From Actimicrobium sp. CCC2.4 (lineage in GTDB: Bacteria > Pseudomonadota > Gammaproteobacteria > Burkholderiales > Burkholderiaceae_D), in contig NZ_CP133777.1 of NCBI RefSeq assembly GCF_034347385.1, positions 992,001 to 1,056,000 on the forward strand: a stretch of DNA of 64,000 nucleotides, in the 5' to 3' direction. Below, one piece after another: positions 5,362-11,218 of this stretch. Both the position numbers and the translations under genes were made by a program. The notes below the pieces were generated by a model, which searched no databases, was not told the DNA's origin, and saw only the letters and a list, made by a program, of their open reading frames with translations. Each line of letters opens with the position of its first letter. Position 1 is the first letter of the stretch.

Positions 5362-5583
5362 GGGGGATATTTTCAATCCGTCAGGTGGCGTCAGACGGCT
5401 ACGAAATTTGCTTATCGTTCAGGGATGTATGCATTTTTTTCATGAAATGAATAAGCCGTGATGCATTGAAAAGTCCGTCCGGATAACTCTCTTACACTCT
5501 CCGCTAGGCTGACGCCGCGCTTACTGCACGGCACCACTACTTCCATGCACGCACGTCATGCATGTTGCCATTCGGAGGGAATA

Positions 5584-6654
5584 ATGAGCAGTTCAACATC
5601 TGGAAACATCACCGCCGAACAGGTCGATCGCCTGTTCCAGGAGATCAGCAGCTTGCTGCTGACGGCGCGACGCGAGGTGCGCAGAACAGTCAACGATGTG
5701 ATGATCCAGACCTATTGGCAAATTGGTCGACTCATCGTTGAGGAGGAACAGAGCGGTGCGGCCCGTGCGATGTATGGCAAAGGAACGCTCGAGTCACTGT
5801 CGCGGAGGTTGACTGCGCAGTTCGGCAAAGGCTACTCGCTGGCAAATTTACGAAATTTCCGTCAATTTTTCCAAACATATTGCGCTGACGACATTCACTA
5901 CACGGCAGGTAGCGAATTGAGCTGGTCCCACTATCGCTTGCTGATGCGCATCGAAAAAATCGAGGCGCGTCGCTGGTATGCACAGGAAGCTATCGCTCAA
6001 CACTGGAGTGTCGCTGCGCTCGACCGGCAAGTCAGCACGCTTTATTTTGAGCGCTTGTTGTCCAGTCAGGACCAGGCCTCTGTCAAGACGGAAGCGAAGC
6101 GCCTGATAGAACGCGATGCATCAGCAGATCCACGTGACTTTATTCGCGACCCTTACGTTCTTGAGTTTCTAGGTGCCGAACCTGGTGCCGCCTTGTACGA
6201 AAAAGACCTGGAACAAGGATTACTCAACCAGCTGCAACAGTTTTTGCTTGAGTTAGGAAAAGGTTTTGCATTCGTCGCTCGGCAGAAGCATTTTCGGATC
6301 GAGAGCGAAGATTGCTTTGTCGACCTGGTCTTCTATAATTTTTTGCTGCGATGCTTTGTGCTTGTCGAGTTAAAAGTGGGCGAGCTTTCACATCAGGATG
6401 TGGGGTAGATGGACATGTATGTGCGTGTCTGCGACCAGAAATTGCGGCAGCCAGCGGATAACCCGACGCTTGGACTGATACTTTGCTCGGAGCGCAACGA
6501 TGCGGTCGCCCGGTATTCGTTGCTCGCCGATAGCCCGCAATTGTTCGCCAGTCGTTACCGTGCGCTGCTTCCGACCGAAGAGGAGCTTCAGGCAGAGCTG
6601 CGTCGTGACCATGCATTGATCGAGTCAAGGAAGGCGCTGGACGACGGCGATTGA
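5584..6654 (+). pseudogene. yhcG: YhcG-type DUF1016/PD-(D/E)XK nuclease gene with an in-frame amber stop
   Basis: The frame runs from ATG 5584 (GGAGGGA ribosome site) to 6654, but codon 275 at 6406-6408 is TAG. Translation on either side of the stop matches one YhcG/DUF1016 protein: ...ELSHQDVG, stop, MDMYVRVCD.... Family members usually have Gln here (QDVGQMDMY), so a single CAG to TAG change explains the break. The N-terminal DUF1016_N part is intact, as are the nuclease residues Asp247 and Glu262-x-Lys264; about 80 C-terminal residues lie past the stop. The ATG right after the stop could allow reinitiation. Suppression or a sequencing error are other possibilities. Confidence 0.82.
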
Positions 6655-6673: not shown

Positions 6674-7156
6674 TTAACTGCTGTTCGTGCGCCCCAGCCA
6701 CACATGCAGCGGCAACCCGGCAGCAAAGCCCCCCCCGATCAGCCAATGCACCCACGACCAGGCCGGCCGGGACATCTCGCCGGCGAGGTAATACAGACCG
6801 TAGCCGGTCAGGACCAGCAACCCCGTCAGCGCGATCATGCTCCAGCCGGAGCTGCGGTTGCGTCGCGCCCGCAAACCGCGCCGGATATGGTTGTTCAGCA
6901 TGCTGCCGAGCAGGAATAGCAGCGCCATCGCGGCGCCACCGTGCAGCTTCATCGACCACGGTTCGAACGGACTGACCGACTCGCCGAATTCGGTGACCGG
7001 CCGCAAGAAAAAATGCGCGACGAGCCACGCCACTCCGCTCAGCGTCAGCAATGCGATCGTCAGATAAACGCTGCGGCGCTGCCAGCGTTCCATCGGCATC
7101 GACATGGCTGCGGCTTGGCGCGACGGATGGTGCAGCGTGTGTTTGGGTGGGCGCAT
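6674..7156 (-). CDS. Four-helix membrane protein, probable b-type cytochrome (DUF4405-like)
   Basis: A 160-residue protein with four predicted membrane helices at about 30-50, 70-88, 105-125 and 134-152. Histidines sit at helix ends: His72 and His90 bracket helix 2, and His137 and His151 bracket helix 4. This arrangement could hold two haems b stacked across the membrane; His48 is extra. An internal Met (residue 18 or 20) is an alternative start. It starts 3 bases after the apbE stop and is the last gene of a coupled five-gene unit. The likely role is passing electrons from the quinone pool or cytoplasm to the flavinylated FMN-binding protein. The fold and topology are read from the sequence; the family name and role are inference. 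Confidence 0.72.
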   Translation of the reverse strand: MRPPKHTLHHPSRQAAAMSMPMERWQRRSVYLTIALLTLSGVAWLVAHFFLRPVTEFGESVSPFEPWSMKLHGGAAMALLFLLGSMLNNHIRRGLRARRNRSSGWSMIALTGLLVLTGYGLYYLAGEMSRPAWSWVHWLIGGGFAAGLPLHVWLGRTNSS

Positions 7157-7159
7157 GGA

Positions 7160-7987
7160 TCAGAGTATGAATGCCTGCGCGCGATGTCGCGCCAGCAGCG
7201 GATGCGTGGCATCGCCGCTGGCCATGACGATCTTGGTCAGCGCATCGGCGTGCAGGCAATCGGCGGCCTGCACGGTGACACTGCGACGGCTGTTGATTGG
7301 TTCGCCACTGCGGCCATCGACCAGTGCACTGACGGCGCGCCCGCCGATTTCCCCGGCCGAAAAATACGTCGCCGAGGTGGCCAGTGCCGCGTTGGCCAGA
7401 TCGACCGTGACGGTGCTTCCGGTGACGGTCGACGGGTCGCGGATGGCGATGGCAAACGGGGTTGCACCGAGCACCCGGACATCACCGCCGGCATTGACGC
7501 AAGCCGATGTCACGCCGGCCTGCTGCAAGACGGCGATGGCCTGGTCGACCGCGTAACCCTTGGCGATGCCGCCGAGATCGATCAGCACGTCGCGGGTTTT
7601 GTGCACGTGTCCATCGGCGGCAAGCAGCAGTCCGCAATCATTGGCGTCGTAGGCCGGCAAAGCGCGGCCGGGTGACGGCAAATATTCCCAGTGCACCAGC
7701 CGTGTCGCGCAGCTGATATTGAAGATCGCGTCACTGCCGGCATGCAGTTGCAGCGCGAGCCGGATGACGCAGGCGGTGTGAGCATCGATGGCAACGGTGG
7801 AGCCGACGGCAGCGCGATTGAGGCGGGCGACATCGCTGCCGGCGTCATGGAAACTCATCAGCCGGTGCACTTCGCTGATACGGGAAAACGCGGCTGTGAA
7901 GGCGGCATTCAGTGGTCCGGCATCGAGCACATCGCCAATCCGGATATCGACCAGCGTGCCTAGCCACGGTTGCGCGCGGCACTTCAT
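7160..7987 (-). CDS. apbE: FAD:protein FMN transferase (ApbE family), short form
   Basis: ApbE covalently attaches FMN from FAD to a Thr or Ser in target proteins. This form has 275 residues against roughly 330-350 for canonical exported ApbE, and has no lipoprotein signal. Family motifs are present: MSFHDAGSDVARLN near 44-57, DLGGIAKGYAVDQ at 137-149, NAGGDV at 165-170 and the Mg-site Asp in ADAL at 247-250. The usual HxxDPxTG segment reads SALVDGRSGEP, so the His is lost. The start overlaps the FMN-binding gene stop (ATGA), so enzyme and substrate are probably coupled. Without an export signal it may act in the cytoplasm, or be exported by an unrecognised route. Confidence 0.87.
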   Translation of the reverse strand: MKCRAQPWLGTLVDIRIGDVLDAGPLNAAFTAAFSRISEVHRLMSFHDAGSDVARLNRAAVGSTVAIDAHTACVIRLALQLHAGSDAIFNISCATRLVHWEYLPSPGRALPAYDANDCGLLLAADGHVHKTRDVLIDLGGIAKGYAVDQAIAVLQQAGVTSACVNAGGDVRVLGATPFAIAIRDPSTVTGSTVTVDLANAALATSATYFSAGEIGGRAVSALVDGRSGEPINSRRSVTVQAADCLHADALTKIVMASGDATHPLLARHRAQAFIL

Positions 7988-8520
7988 TTTTTGAGAGCGA
8001 CCTGCACGACGGCAGCGATGCGGCGTACGCCATCGGTGACATGATTCGAGGACAGCGTTGCACCGCTGATGTTGCTGATGCCCTCGCCGACGGCCAGTCC
8101 GGCTTGCGCCGATTTACCGACGAACTGCTTGCGCCATGCGGGGCTGCGGATTTCAAAGCCGTGGCTCTCGCGGTAGGTCAGGATTTCGATTTGTCGTACC
8201 GTCGCATCGGGGCTCAGTGCCACCGCATACGAAATCAGCTCGTACTTGCCGATCACGTCATCGAGCACGACATAGCCCAGCAGCGTCTCGCCGCGCCATG
8301 CCGACAAGACGCGCCATTGCACCGAGCGCGCCGGCAGGCCGGCAAGCTTTTGCACGTCGCGCATTTGCGCGGCAGTCAGTTCCAGTGGCTGCGGCTTGAA
8401 CGTGGTGGCGTCGGCAAACATGACTTGCTGTGCTTCTTCCGCCGTCAGGTATTGGGTGGCGAACGCGCTGCCGCTGGCCAGCAGCGCGCAGGTGACCAGC
8501 GCGCTGCCGGTGCGGCCCAT
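7984..8520 (-). CDS. Exported FMN-binding domain protein, predicted ApbE substrate
   Basis: A 178-residue protein with a signal peptide (cleavage likely after GSAFA) and a C-terminal FMN_bind domain. The flavinylation motif SGAT lies at 152-155, followed by LSSNHVTDGVRRI; Thr155 is the predicted acceptor for covalent FMN. The ATG at 8520 shares one base with the porin stop (TGATG); a TTG one codon upstream is less likely. It lies directly upstream of apbE with a 4-base overlap, which strongly supports the enzyme-substrate pairing. It probably carries electrons in the periplasm between the membrane cytochrome-like protein and a terminal acceptor. The acceptor is unknown. Confidence 0.87.
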   Translation of the reverse strand: MGRTGSALVTCALLASGSAFATQYLTAEEAQQVMFADATTFKPQPLELTAAQMRDVQKLAGLPARSVQWRVLSAWRGETLLGYVVLDDVIGKYELISYAVALSPDATVRQIEILTYRESHGFEIRSPAWRKQFVGKSAQAGLAVGEGISNISGATLSSNHVTDGVRRIAAVVQVALKK

Positions 8521-9815
8521 CAAAATGCGTAACCCATGCCGAGATTGACGCGGTCGCGGGTCCGGTCGATCTGGAATTTCTGGTAATCGGCCTTCAGTAC
8601 AACGCCTTCACCGACCCGCAGATTGGCACCGGCAGTGGTGACTTTTTCGGTCGGCCCTGTCGCGACCTCGGCGCCTTGCACCTGCCCGGCATAGCTGCGC
8701 GCGGTGTTGAATTGCTCATAGCGGACGAACGGCGAGAAGACGTAATCCTGCGATTTCCAGGCTTGATAGGCGGCTTGTACATACCAGCCATCGAACGATG
8801 ACGGTACCGGCGTCGGGTTGCCGGCAAACGTCAGGTTCAGGTTGGTCGTATTGCTGATCGTGCCGCGGGCGTACACGCCGGCCAGATCCCATTTGCCGGG
8901 GGTGTACCGGGCATGCACATCCCACAGCGTCACGCGGGATTTTGGTGCGGCGAAGTTGGCTGCGCCCTGCGCGACGTCACCGCTAAAGACAGAGCCGCCG
9001 AGCAGCAAGCCCGGTACGCCACGCCAGTTCAGTGCGGCGTGGCCGCCGAGGTTGCGTGATTTGGCAAGCTGACCTTCCTGATGGATCGCGGCCAGCGGCG
9101 ATTCGCGGCCATCGGGCGATGCCGCATCCCACTTGCCCAGATCGAATCCGGTGGTCAGGCCGAGGTCCCAGGTCAGGCCGTTGTCGAGTGTTGACGACAG
9201 ACCGATACCAGCTTCGCGCCAGGTCGACGGGATGATCGCGGTTTCGACAAAATTGCGTTCGACACCGTAAAACGCGGTCGGCTCGTGGTTGGTATTGAGC
9301 AGGCCGGCCGGCATCAGGAACAGGCCGACCTTGGCACGCAGGCCATTGTCAAATTCGCGCTCGATGTACAACTGCTCGACTGCGGCTTCGCCCTTGTCGT
9401 CGGCCGAGGTGACCGCGTGCTCCCATTCGAATTCGGAGACCAGCTTGGTCTTCGCATCGAAGCGATGCTGGATGCCGATGACGGCGCGGCGGACATCGGT
9501 CTGAGCGGCGCTGGCATCCTTGCTCGGGCGGTTGTAATTGATTTCGCCGTAGCCGGACAAGACCGTTTGCGGTTCGCTGCTCATGCCGCCTGAGGTGCCG
9601 GCCTGGCTGGAAGCGACCGGTGTTGGCCCGGCCAACTGGCGCGCTTCGACGGCATCGCTTTTTTTGCGGGTGGCGGCCAGTTCGGCCTTGACCTGATCGA
9701 GCTCGGCGGCGAGCTTGTCGAGTCGTTGCATCAGGTCGGCTTCGCTGGCATGCGCCAGCAGCGGAAGGGTACAGAAAGCGAGCGCAACAGCGCGTGCGGC
9801 AAGGGTCAGTTTCAT
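8520..9815 (-). CDS. Outer-membrane porin, OprP-like, with N-terminal coiled coil
   Basis: A 431-residue beta-barrel protein with a signal peptide ending LAHAS, a short coiled coil at about residues 25-55 (LMQRLDKLAAELDQVKAEL), a linker, then a barrel region ending in the terminal aromatic AF typical of outer-membrane proteins. The layout resembles phosphate-selective/OprO-P type porins. It starts 15 bases after the peroxidase gene stop and overlaps the FMN-binding gene, so it belongs to the same transcript. In this Fur-boxed context it may admit an iron-related or other redox substrate; that is inference. Confidence 0.78.
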   Translation of the reverse strand: MKLTLAARAVALAFCTLPLLAHASEADLMQRLDKLAAELDQVKAELAATRKKSDAVEARQLAGPTPVASSQAGTSGGMSSEPQTVLSGYGEINYNRPSKDASAAQTDVRRAVIGIQHRFDAKTKLVSEFEWEHAVTSADDKGEAAVEQLYIEREFDNGLRAKVGLFLMPAGLLNTNHEPTAFYGVERNFVETAIIPSTWREAGIGLSSTLDNGLTWDLGLTTGFDLGKWDAASPDGRESPLAAIHQEGQLAKSRNLGGHAALNWRGVPGLLLGGSVFSGDVAQGAANFAAPKSRVTLWDVHARYTPGKWDLAGVYARGTISNTTNLNLTFAGNPTPVPSSFDGWYVQAAYQAWKSQDYVFSPFVRYEQFNTARSYAGQVQGAEVATGPTEKVTTAGANLRVGEGVVLKADYQKFQIDRTRDRVNLGMGYAF

Positions 9816-9830
9816 GGTGGGGATGTGGAG

Positions 9831-11078
9831 TTAAGGGTTGATCTGATAGCCATCGTTGAGCGTGCCGAGAAACGTGATCACGTCGTCGATTTCCTGCGCT
9901 GACAAGGCCGGCGCCATGCCAGGCAATCGGTTGTACGGCACTTCGACGGTGTTGACATTTTTCTTGTAGGCCGCAGGCAGGTCGTCAAACTTGTCAATGC
10001 TGCCGTCGGCGGCACGCGGGTACCACTCTTCCGGGTTGGTATCGCGCCGGACATAAAAGCCGAGCACGTCGCGCAAATTGGTGAACCGGCCATTGTGGAA
10101 AAACACTTTGCGTGTGGTGACGTTGCGCAAGCCCGGCACCTTGAAGGCGCCGCACAGATCGGTGCGGCCGCTCAGGTCATTGCGGATAGGGCCGCACAGA
10201 CCGAGGTCAAAATAGGCCGGGTCGGCATTGGCTGGAATGGCCGGATTGCGCGGTACGCCGATATTGTCGTAGCTGAAATCAGTGAACAGCGGCGAGCTGC
10301 CATCGGCTCCGCGGGCGCTGACGTGGCAGGCCGCACAATTGCCCTTGGCGGGATTGTTGAACAGGGCCAGGCCGCGCAGTTCTGCACTGCTCAGCGCGAC
10401 TTTGCCGGCCAGGAACTGGTCGTATTTCGCGTCGAACGGGAAAAAATCGTGGTCCTCTTTCTGGTACTGCTGCAACGCGAAACCGATGCGTTCGACGGCC
10501 TGTTCGGGAGCCGCCAGGATGTCGCTGCCGAACACCTGGCGGAATTCTTCGACATAGGCGGCTTTTGCCAGGCGAGCCGTCAGATCGGCTGCGCTGATGT
10601 TGGCCATTTCATGCGCGGCCAGCAACGGCACCCGGGCCTGTCCGGCCAGCGTTGCCGCACTGCCGTCGCGGTTGAACCCGGCGGTCGGCGTGCCGTCTTT
10701 GGCAAAGAAGAACGCCGGCAGCAGGTTCAGATAGCGCAACGACGGTACGGCGCGCGTACCCGGTATTTGCTGGTTGACACCGCCAAGTTGCACGGACAAG
10801 TCGTTCGATTGGGCATGAGCGTTGGCCGGATTATGGCAAGTGGCGCAGGCCATCTGTCCGGAAGCCGACAAGGAAGTATCGCTGAAGATTTTTTGGCCCA
10901 GCAGCGCTGCTGCACTGAGGGTAATGGTCGCGGGGGGCGTGGCTACTGGAGTCACTGCGGTGCCACCGCCACCGCCGCAGCCAGACAGAAGCAGCAAAGT
11001 GAACAGGGCTGTGCGGGTGCTGCTCAGCAGCGGGAAATGGCGTCCGACGGATGATCGGCAAGGAGTGCTTGATAGCAT
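9831..11078 (-). CDS. Di-haem cytochrome c peroxidase/MauG-family lipoprotein
   Basis: A 415-residue protein with a lipobox LLSGC (Cys34), a Gly-rich tether and two haem c sites: CATCH at 78-82 and CAACH at 248-252. The spacing and overall length fit the CcpA/MauG superfamily of periplasmic di-haem peroxidases. The lipid anchor and the very short linker suggest outer- or inner-membrane attachment facing the periplasm. It is the first gene of the minus-strand unit that continues into the porin, FMN-binding protein, apbE and membrane protein. A Fur-box-like site lies 45-62 bases upstream. It could reduce peroxide or serve as an electron exit site; the substrate cannot be told from sequence. Confidence 0.85.
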   Translation of the reverse strand: MLSSTPCRSSVGRHFPLLSSTRTALFTLLLLSGCGGGGGTAVTPVATPPATITLSAAALLGQKIFSDTSLSASGQMACATCHNPANAHAQSNDLSVQLGGVNQQIPGTRAVPSLRYLNLLPAFFFAKDGTPTAGFNRDGSAATLAGQARVPLLAAHEMANISAADLTARLAKAAYVEEFRQVFGSDILAAPEQAVERIGFALQQYQKEDHDFFPFDAKYDQFLAGKVALSSAELRGLALFNNPAKGNCAACHVSARGADGSSPLFTDFSYDNIGVPRNPAIPANADPAYFDLGLCGPIRNDLSGRTDLCGAFKVPGLRNVTTRKVFFHNGRFTNLRDVLGFYVRRDTNPEEWYPRAADGSIDKFDDLPAAYKKNVNTVEVPYNRLPGMAPALSAQEIDDVITFLGTLNDGYQINP

Positions 11079-11122
11079 GGGAATAGGCGGGCAACGAGTT
11101 TGATCGGGCTGGATTGTCTTCC

Positions 11123-11140
11123 AATGAGAATGATTCTAAT
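11123..11140 (-). promoter_or_regulatory. Candidate Fur box upstream of the di-haem peroxidase operon
   Basis: On the minus strand the site reads ATTAGAATCATTCTCATT, an imperfect palindrome close to the Fur consensus of NATWAT-type repeats and like known Fur boxes containing AATCATTCTCATT. It lies 45 bases upstream of the first gene of the five-gene redox unit. This implies repression when iron is plentiful. No Fur protein is encoded in the window. Confidence 0.68.
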
Positions 11141-11218
11141 TTAGAAGCAGGAATTCGGCAAGCCCCCGTCCACTCGGTTCCCGTGTTTTGAAATTTATTT
11201 TTGGCTGATTTGTCGACC

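Follow-up and report, generated by a model that had tools for sequence, protein, structure and literature searches.

Which function do five closely spaced minus-strand genes serve when they are preceded by a Fur-box-like palindrome and encode a di-haem c-type lipoprotein, a porin, an FMN_bind flavoprotein, an ApbE homologue, and a small histidine-rich membrane protein? This locus occupies positions 6674 to 11141 of a stretch of 64,000 nucleotides of the Actimicrobium sp. CCC2.4 genome (contig NZ_CP133777.1, positions 992,001 to 1,056,000), which is called the window throughout this text. A preliminary description had interpreted the genes as an extracytoplasmic electron transfer locus that might be induced by iron starvation. 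Here, we found that the gene order recurs in related genomes, that Fur-like sites are frequent upstream of the first gene, and that iron genes recur among the neighbours. With modest confidence, we consider it probable that the operon encodes a ferric reduction chain for iron assimilation, which spans the cell envelope, is controlled by Fur, and is induced when iron becomes scarce.

Gene organization and conservation of the locus

All five open reading frames (ORFs) were confirmed and they run from position 11078 down to position 6674 (Table 1). In 5' to 3' direction, consecutive genes are separated by 15 bases, overlap by 1–4 bases, overlap by 4 bases, and are separated by 3 bases. These values were calculated from the coordinates and thus the earlier claim that no spacing exceeds 15 bases was correct. 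The assignment of the products as lipoprotein, porin, exported FMN_bind protein with SGAT motif, ApbE, and membrane protein also held, and the sequences contain both the cysteine of the lipoprotein and the SGAT motif. Pfam searches with the window proteins returned CCP_MauG (E 2.3e-31), FMN_bind (PF04205, E 5.7e-9), and ApbE (PF02424, E 1.6e-49); for the porin and the membrane protein of the window, no family scored above the Pfam cut-off. PepSY and DUF2271 gave no match in the five operon proteins at E-values up to 0.1.

Table 1. Coordinates of the genes and sequence elements of the locus (positions in the window)
Feature	Position	Strand	Remarks
BthA-like di-haem c-type lipoprotein (CCP_MauG family)	9831..11078	-	two CXXCH, Tyr ligand, C295/C309 pair, lipobox Cys34
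Predicted 16-strand outer-membrane porin, OprP/OprO-type, N-terminal coiled coil	8520..9815	-	structure model and its matches
Exported FMN_bind protein, RnfG/NqrC-like	7984..8520	-	ATG start; TTG alternative at 8523
SGAT flavinylation motif	8056..8067	-	Thr of SGAT is the predicted FMN site
ApbE homologue	7160..7987	-	signal peptide not detectable; catalytic-His motif lost; ADALTK vs ADGLAT in solved ApbE
Four-helix inner-membrane protein, His72/90/137/151	6674..7156	-	predicted di-haem cytochrome b (DUF4405/b561-like)
Fur-box-like palindrome AATTAGAATCATTCTCATT	11123..11141	-	one mismatch to perfect palindrome; overlaps -10 hexamer
Sigma-70-like promoter TTGCCG-17-TAGAAT	11133..11161	-	promoter scan; weak taken alone

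A collection of species genomes (84,980 species) was scanned with the FMN_bind protein and the best 80 of 106 loci were examined. Co-occurrence in related genomes had been proposed as a check and it was found: 43 of the 80 loci retain the order di-haem protein, porin, FMN_bind protein, ApbE, membrane protein. Thus, the five-gene set recurs, but it is not indivisible, since the di-haem gene was present in only 47 loci. Two of these 47 matches are fragments (L010 and L026, 50 and 119 bits), and four of the 33 loci in which the gene is missing end at a contig edge. Wherever the di-haem gene occurs, it is accompanied by the porin (47 of 63 porin loci). The other 17 loci involve a DUF6662-type protein (about 300 residues, one homologous set), the gene of which lies immediately upstream of FMN_bind; the two members scanned match DUF6662 and none of these 17 loci has a di-haem gene. 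A weak match to a barrel family (E 0.0081, below the cut-off) suggests that the DUF6662 proteins may be outer-membrane barrels, and with this assignment each of the 80 loci has a predicted barrel gene ahead of the flavoprotein gene (63 porins, 17 DUF6662-type proteins). ApbE was found in 77 loci and the membrane protein in 73, each of them once on the opposite strand. Judged from the sequences, the core of the system is the predicted barrel, the FMN_bind protein, ApbE, and the predicted cytochrome b, and the di-haem protein is an optional constituent tied to the porin form.

According to the record labels, most of the loci belong to Burkholderiales and some to Dokdonella, Rudaea, Moraxellaceae, Verrucomicrobia, Omnitrophota, Chlamydiae, and Alphaproteobacteria; many are metagenome bins. 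A second sample, an even draw of 250 Burkholderiales genomes, contained the flavoprotein family in 41 genomes (two of them weak matches), which is about one in six, and the di-haem family in 39. The flavoprotein family also occurs in records labelled as other phyla.

Some irregularities were seen among the loci. In L031, L032, L035, L036, L037, and L039, another secreted protein replaces the di-haem gene upstream of the porin, and the single member scanned (L036) matches TIGR03118. In L014 (6863–8416), FMN_bind and ApbE share one open frame, which may be a natural fusion or a base-count error. This case was left unused because the porin is also split there and a homopolymer base-count error could explain both.

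The Fur-like box

The palindrome AATTAGAATCATTCTCATT is located 45 bases from the ATG of the di-haem gene, at the distance that had been reported for it. The promoter with which it overlaps was the sole promoter-like site between positions 11070 and 11260 (shuffled sequences gave a mean of 0.3 with a standard deviation of 0.7). When the genome (4,150,713 bases) was scanned for the perfect palindrome with up to three mismatches, three places were found, and the reversed control pattern gave none. Because of this result, the box is not regarded as a chance occurrence. The operon box deviates by one mismatch and the other two sites by three mismatches each. One of these is located about 280 bases before a tonB frame, which is followed by exbB, and the other about 280 bases before the likely first Met of feoB, each in the orientation of its gene. 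A strict Fur consensus of the E. coli type was tried and rejected: GATAATGATAATCATTATC with three mismatches misses the window site, which fits the shifted register AATGATAATNATTATCATT, and this register was adopted instead.

For comparison of the loci, 18 consensus positions were scored with a cut-off of at least 13; gene starts are approximate, and 7 of the 80 loci were dropped since their upstream DNA was short. Sites of at least 13/18 were detected upstream of the first gene in 55 of 73 loci. The corresponding background was 26 hits in 1,460 dinucleotide shuffles and 36 hits in 1,410 GC-matched segments taken from the same loci. At a cut-off of at least 14/18, 39 of 73 loci were positive compared with 5 shuffles and 11 GC-matched segments. 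The window box scores 15/18. An earlier scoring with the E. coli-type consensus, which is superseded, had given at least 13/19 in 41 of 74 loci (35 of 1,480 shuffles, 49 of 1,480 random segments). When the loci were sorted by their first gene, sites were found in 38 of 45 loci with a di-haem gene, in 4 of 6 with a TIGR03118-type gene, in 3 of 6 with a porin, and in 10 of 16 with a DUF6662-type gene. These recurrences are not independent events because the loci are related. Nevertheless, the Fur-like box noted in the window is conserved upstream of its relatives far above both controls, and the operon appears to belong to the Fur regulon with a Fur box at its promoter, which makes Fur- and iron-dependent expression a putative property of the locus.

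The membrane protein, the flavoprotein, and the ApbE homologue

The histidines of the membrane protein are invariant: His72 and His90 were found in 74 of 74 aligned members, and His137 (72/72) and His151 (71/71) in all rows with a residue at these positions. Four conserved histidines on two helices are characteristic of DUF4405/b561-like proteins. At E-values up to 0.01, 32 of the 74 members match DUF4405 (best 1.2e-6) and 27 match the cytochrome b561 family Ni_hydr_CYTB (best 3.8e-9); the window protein itself reached E 0.031 with Ni_hydr_CYTB, which is below the cut-off, and did not match DUF4405. The structure model (predicted local distance difference test, pLDDT, 91.6) involves four helices with His72/His90 on the second and His137/His151 on the fourth. 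Loop charges place both termini in the cytoplasm (N-in/C-in), and thus one His pair would lie near each membrane face. The top Foldseek match of the model was the cytochrome b of hydrogenase 1 (weak, E 0.06), and VIA-align gave Z-values of 10 to 13 for the designed two-haem protein 4D2, the cytochromes b6 and bc1, and superoxide oxidase. A profile search of the PDB with the alignment of the membrane protein yielded chance-level matches only. We predict that this protein is a di-haem cytochrome b, chiefly because of its histidines and because a DUF4405 protein, the genes of which adjoin apbE, has been shown to bind haem b (PMC11334425). The electron chain that had been suggested for the locus gains support from the four invariant histidines and from a model that resembles di-haem b cytochromes among other bundles.

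For the FMN_bind protein, the nearest solved structure is RnfG (PDB 9eri_G, E 3.6e-7). The [S/T]GA[S/T] site lies within the domain, and its Thr156 is Thr in 80 of 81 rows and Ser in the remaining one. The Asp of the longer motif D-x-x-[S/T]-G-A-[S/T] is lacking: the window protein has Ser150 and Asp occurs in 1 of 81 rows. A review reports only minor effects for a D-to-A change in the flavinylation motif (PMC12052999). In a simple hydropathy test (not SignalP), 75 of 80 FMN_bind proteins carried a hydrophobic leader. A twin-arginine motif behind an in-frame ATG was seen in four divergent members (L068, L074, L078, L082); by eye, the remaining leaders, including that of the window protein, are of the Sec-type. 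Apart from the signal peptide, no further membrane anchor was seen in the sequence of the window protein.

The remaining gene product of this group was correctly recognized as an ApbE homologue (best PDB match E 4.6e-18), but it is not an ordinary exported enzyme, since its leader is not detectable and its active site is changed. An ordinary secreted ApbE was rejected for these two reasons. We accepted any start codon within the 60 residues that precede the conserved domain and judged the leaders by hydropathy rather than SignalP. Under these conditions, 64 of the 69 loci that could be assessed (8 others could not) encode an ApbE with no hydrophobic leader. The five exceptions are L014 (fused ORF), L024, L056, L064 (opposite strand), and L072, apparently a genuine lipoprotein. 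Of the catalytic triad (V. cholerae ApbE Ser241, His257, Asp285 as reference), Ser205 is kept in 73 of 76 and Asp248 in all 74 of the rows that have a residue at the respective position. The catalytic-His motif H-x-x-D-[PA] was found in just 2 of 78 rows (L072, L080), and the position of the His aligns to Ala221 of the window protein. Moreover, 73 of 74 rows with a residue carry Lys where a solved ApbE has a Thr, presumably a metal ligand.

Some activity of the ApbE may remain without the His, because the activity of the His-to-Gly enzyme of V. cholerae was only decreased (PMC12052999). The operon ApbE may flavinylate its FMN_bind partner, and if it is cytoplasmic, it would do so before export. 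The best-known ApbEs for envelope proteins are exported and attach the flavin outside the cytosol. Cytosolic ApbEs are also known, and the bacterial case described in the same review has a cytosolic target; no cytosolic ApbE paired with an exported target was seen in the text consulted.

Two further ApbE genes were observed in the window genome. At about 617,000, a second flavinylation cluster involves a DUF3570 protein followed by a leaderless ApbE (L084, 238–2406, + strand) and, downstream, a frame with a CXXCH motif, so that lack of a leader is not unique to the operon. The third ApbE has a twin-arginine-type leader, and its neighbour is presumably a NosR-like protein.

The di-haem lipoprotein and the porin

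The nearest solved protein to the di-haem lipoprotein is BthA (E 2e-75), far ahead of the other matches (MauG 2e-40). Classical cytochrome c peroxidase, which was considered as a candidate, was ruled out by the far better scores of BthA and MauG and by the retained Tyr ligand. Thus, of the earlier term di-haem peroxidase lipoprotein, the di-haem lipoprotein stands, but the protein is BthA/MauG-like. The sequences contain two CXXCH motifs (45/45 rows), the Tyr ligand (Tyr342, 46/46), and the disulfide pair (C295/C309, 46/46), and lack the Ca2+ site, as is the case for BthA. Instead of this site, at the position of BthA Lys444, R323 is Arg in 43 rows, Lys in 2, and Gly in 1, and the K444R variant of BthA is active (PMC6405878). 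The inter-haem position is occupied by Trp (21 rows), Arg (16 rows, window included), His (6 rows), or Leu (2 rows), and the lipobox Cys is kept in 43 of 47 rows.

The presence of this protein raises the possibility that the locus serves peroxide respiration or defence, in which the cytochrome b and the flavoprotein would pass electrons to the BthA-like lipoprotein for reduction of H2O2 at the outer membrane under iron starvation, when haem catalase is scarce. All 45 rows that have a residue there keep the peroxidase residues Glu157, Gln147, and Pro151, the di-haem gene opens the operon and runs in the same direction as the other genes, and BthA turns over H2O2 (PMC6405878). The same paper describes the role of BthA-like enzymes as unknown. 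We nevertheless regard this function as fairly unlikely, since the loci without the di-haem gene include all 17 DUF6662 loci, which keep the rest of the module together with Fur-like sites. The recurrent identified neighbours, in addition, are iron genes; oxidative-stress genes were not looked for separately.

The porin was modelled as a 16-strand barrel behind a coiled coil. VIA returned OprP and OprO as best matches (Z 26.6 over 313 and 309 residues), and Foldseek ranked OmpF/OmpC-type porins first. Porin_O_P was detected at E-values up to 0.01 in 35 of 59 family members, the window porin not being among them, and a PDB profile search with the porin alignment gave one weak outer-membrane match (E 0.017). 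The predicted 16-strand barrel and the family profile both argue for an OprP/OprO-type porin. The locus does not resemble an MtrCAB-type conduit, in which a multihaem cytochrome is combined with a large barrel such as MtrB, as it offers two CXXCH motifs only and a predicted 16-strand porin.

These data also bear on a surface ferric reductase, in which an external di-haem lipoprotein, with the porin as conduit or anchor, would accept electrons from the flavoprotein in the periplasm and reduce ferric iron or minerals outside the cell. The conserved lipobox, the confinement of the di-haem gene to the porin form, and the invariable position of the barrel gene ahead of the flavoprotein are what such an arrangement would predict. 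We rate it as quite unlikely, since the porin was modelled as an ordinary OprP/OmpF-type pore and the locus offers no multihaem wire that could occupy it. A pair of haems would probably not reach across the outer membrane, and the porin persists where the di-haem gene is missing.

A bolder proposal is that the locus represents a new class of flavin wire. Here, a signal-less ApbE subfamily (no His, Lys for Thr) would flavinylate its substrate in the cytoplasm, the flavoprotein would then be exported (by Tat in some lineages and by Sec in most), and an obligatory but exchangeable barrel together with an optional bis-Fe(IV)-type lipoprotein would form the outer end, with ferric iron or the porin itself as its target. 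We put this forward as a speculation with a small chance of being correct in full.

Iron-related neighbours and a putative ferric reduction chain

Neighbouring ORFs were clustered without preselected families (1,005,303 bases searched). After the DUF6662 set, FeoB was the commonest neighbour cluster (12 of 80 loci, on differing sides and strands; identity from scanned cluster representatives). By length, about 0.24 FeoB would be expected if one feoB per 4.15 Mb is assumed, a rate that was taken from this genome and is applied to loci that are not independent. A Fur-family gene was found in 6 of the 80 loci (directly upstream in L052, L057, and L072), bacterioferritin in 4, and a close siderophore receptor in 3, all of them Collimonas; more distant receptors occur in L014, L045, and L070. 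Family scans confirmed 4 of the 6 Fur-family proteins, 2 of the 4 bacterioferritins, and one receptor, and the others were assigned by similarity. Taken together, one or more genes for FeoB, a Fur-family protein, bacterioferritin, or a close siderophore receptor were found in 20 of 80 loci. As a separate observation, the single FeoB_C match of the window genome (about 3577800–3579400) belongs to a feoB whose N- and C-terminal halves lie in different overlapping frames (frameshift or sequencing error), and this interrupted gene has a Fur-like site upstream.

The following scenario would accommodate these data. Under iron starvation, Fur would dissociate from the box that covers the -10 hexamer, and transcription of the operon would begin. 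The four-helix protein would hold one b haem at His90/His151, close to the cytoplasm, and another at His72/His137, close to the periplasm, and would conduct electrons of the quinol or NAD(P)H pool through the inner membrane. The electrons would then reach the FMN on the SGAT Thr of the exported flavoprotein, and the flavin may reduce ferric chelates that enter the periplasm via the outer-membrane barrel of the operon. The Fe(II) formed would be taken up by FeoB. The BthA-like lipoprotein would be an outer-membrane accessory, which most likely removes H2O2 with electrons of the same chain and would thus keep Fe(II) and peroxide apart. Of this scenario, the gene order, the box, the motifs, their conservation, and the leaderless ApbE can be seen in the sequences, and the folds are predictions. 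The iron response, the haem and flavin content, the direction of electron flow, the ferric substrate, and the role of the lipoprotein are deductions.

Alternatively, the chain may reduce a quinone or a metal oxyanion in the periplasm, or may catalyse the release step of a ferric siderophore, and Fur control would then reflect siderophore use. Siderophore receptors adjoin the operon in the three Collimonas loci and the two barrel families may indicate varied substrates. Such a role seems clearly unlikely to us, since the neighbouring genes for FeoB and bacterioferritin suggest Fe(II) and the close receptors are restricted to three loci of one genus.

Several observations weigh against the ferric reduction chain. 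It is deduced from sequences and models, and a haem-rich protein under Fur repression conflicts with iron sparing. Since leader and catalytic-His motif are missing, the operon ApbE may not load flavin, and the genome encodes two other ApbEs. The structural matches of the four-helix model were tied with unrelated and designed helical bundles. The tonB and feoB sites are distant from their genes, and 18 of 73 loci have no Fur-like site of at least 13 (lowest scores in L040 with 8, and L039 and L047 with 9). The operon itself involves no iron transporter, the feoB of the genome is far off on the chromosome with its frame interrupted, and no member of the four iron families was found in the flanks examined of 60 of the 80 loci (close receptors only counted). 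The gene set is also not always complete: L038 and L062 have FMN_bind without an ApbE or cytochrome gene within 6 kb downstream, L010 has no ApbE, L045 and L072 have no cytochrome match, and the opposite strand holds the cytochrome gene in L076 and ApbE in L064. The sequences of L047, L064, and L079 end too soon to judge the cytochrome gene. Finally, the flavoprotein and di-haem families lie within 3 kb of each other in just 6 of the 250 Burkholderiales genomes. The top seven di-haem scores (at least 624 bits; next 548) came from these six genomes and from one with the gene at a contig edge, and most di-haem relatives sit elsewhere in genomes, like BthA.

Comparison with known systems

The literature searched contains no description of this gene set, in line with the initial statement that no characterised system has exactly these five genes; the supplementary tables of the large survey of flavinylation clusters (PMC8238504) may well list such loci. 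Neither porin nor peroxidase is mentioned in the main text of this survey or in that of PMC11334425. The parts of the operon are homologous to known families, and the set as a whole matches none described in the text compared.

A functional parallel is provided by the PepSY/DUF2271/DUF4198/ApbE clusters (Caulobacter CC_3059-3063, Shewanella; PMC8238504, PMC3751524). According to the text consulted, PepSY-type flavinylation clusters are Fur-repressed (PMC8238504), and they share with the operon an ApbE with its substrate, an inner-membrane carrier, and a proposed role in ferric reduction. In contrast to them, the operon has a predicted four-helix DUF4405/b561-like carrier, an FMN_bind substrate, a predicted barrel at every locus, and an ApbE with altered active site and no detectable leader. 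The DUF4405-apbE clusters (PMC11334425), a second functional parallel, also place a four-His membrane cytochrome beside apbE, and haem b was shown for one member. There, however, DUF4405 is described with six helices, and its clusters frequently include a flavin transporter along with a Flavodoxin_4 substrate.

BthA of Burkholderia thailandensis (PDB 6nx0, 6v59; PMC6405878) shares with the aligned lipoprotein sequences the Tyr ligand, the Cys-Cys pair, the positive residue for the Ca2+ site, and the Glu/Gln/Pro distal pocket. It differs by a Ser at the inter-haem position, and it adjoins a phosphatase, whereas the operon lipoprotein adjoins a porin and a flavin module. RnfG and NqrC share the FMN_bind domain with its SGAT-type FMN site, but the operon encodes no Rnf or Nqr subunit and its FMN_bind protein has a signal peptide only. 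The cytosolic ApbE of Klebsiella also lacks a signal peptide (PMC12052999); its target is a cytosolic fumarate reductase, whereas the operon partner carries an export signal.

The pairing of a leaderless, His-less ApbE with an exported SGAT protein makes the site and mode of flavin attachment directly testable. The BthA-like di-haem enzymes gain a conserved setting (Fur-like box, porin, flavoprotein), and an outer-membrane barrel emerges as fixed partner of a flavin chain. If the ferric reduction chain is real, it would constitute a further route of assimilatory ferric reduction.

Convergent with the end of the operon, a gene for a DUF1016/YhcG-type nuclease (5545–6654, + strand) looks interrupted: its 287-residue frame stops early in YhcG_C (positions 2–89 of 157) and an 81-residue frame follows directly.

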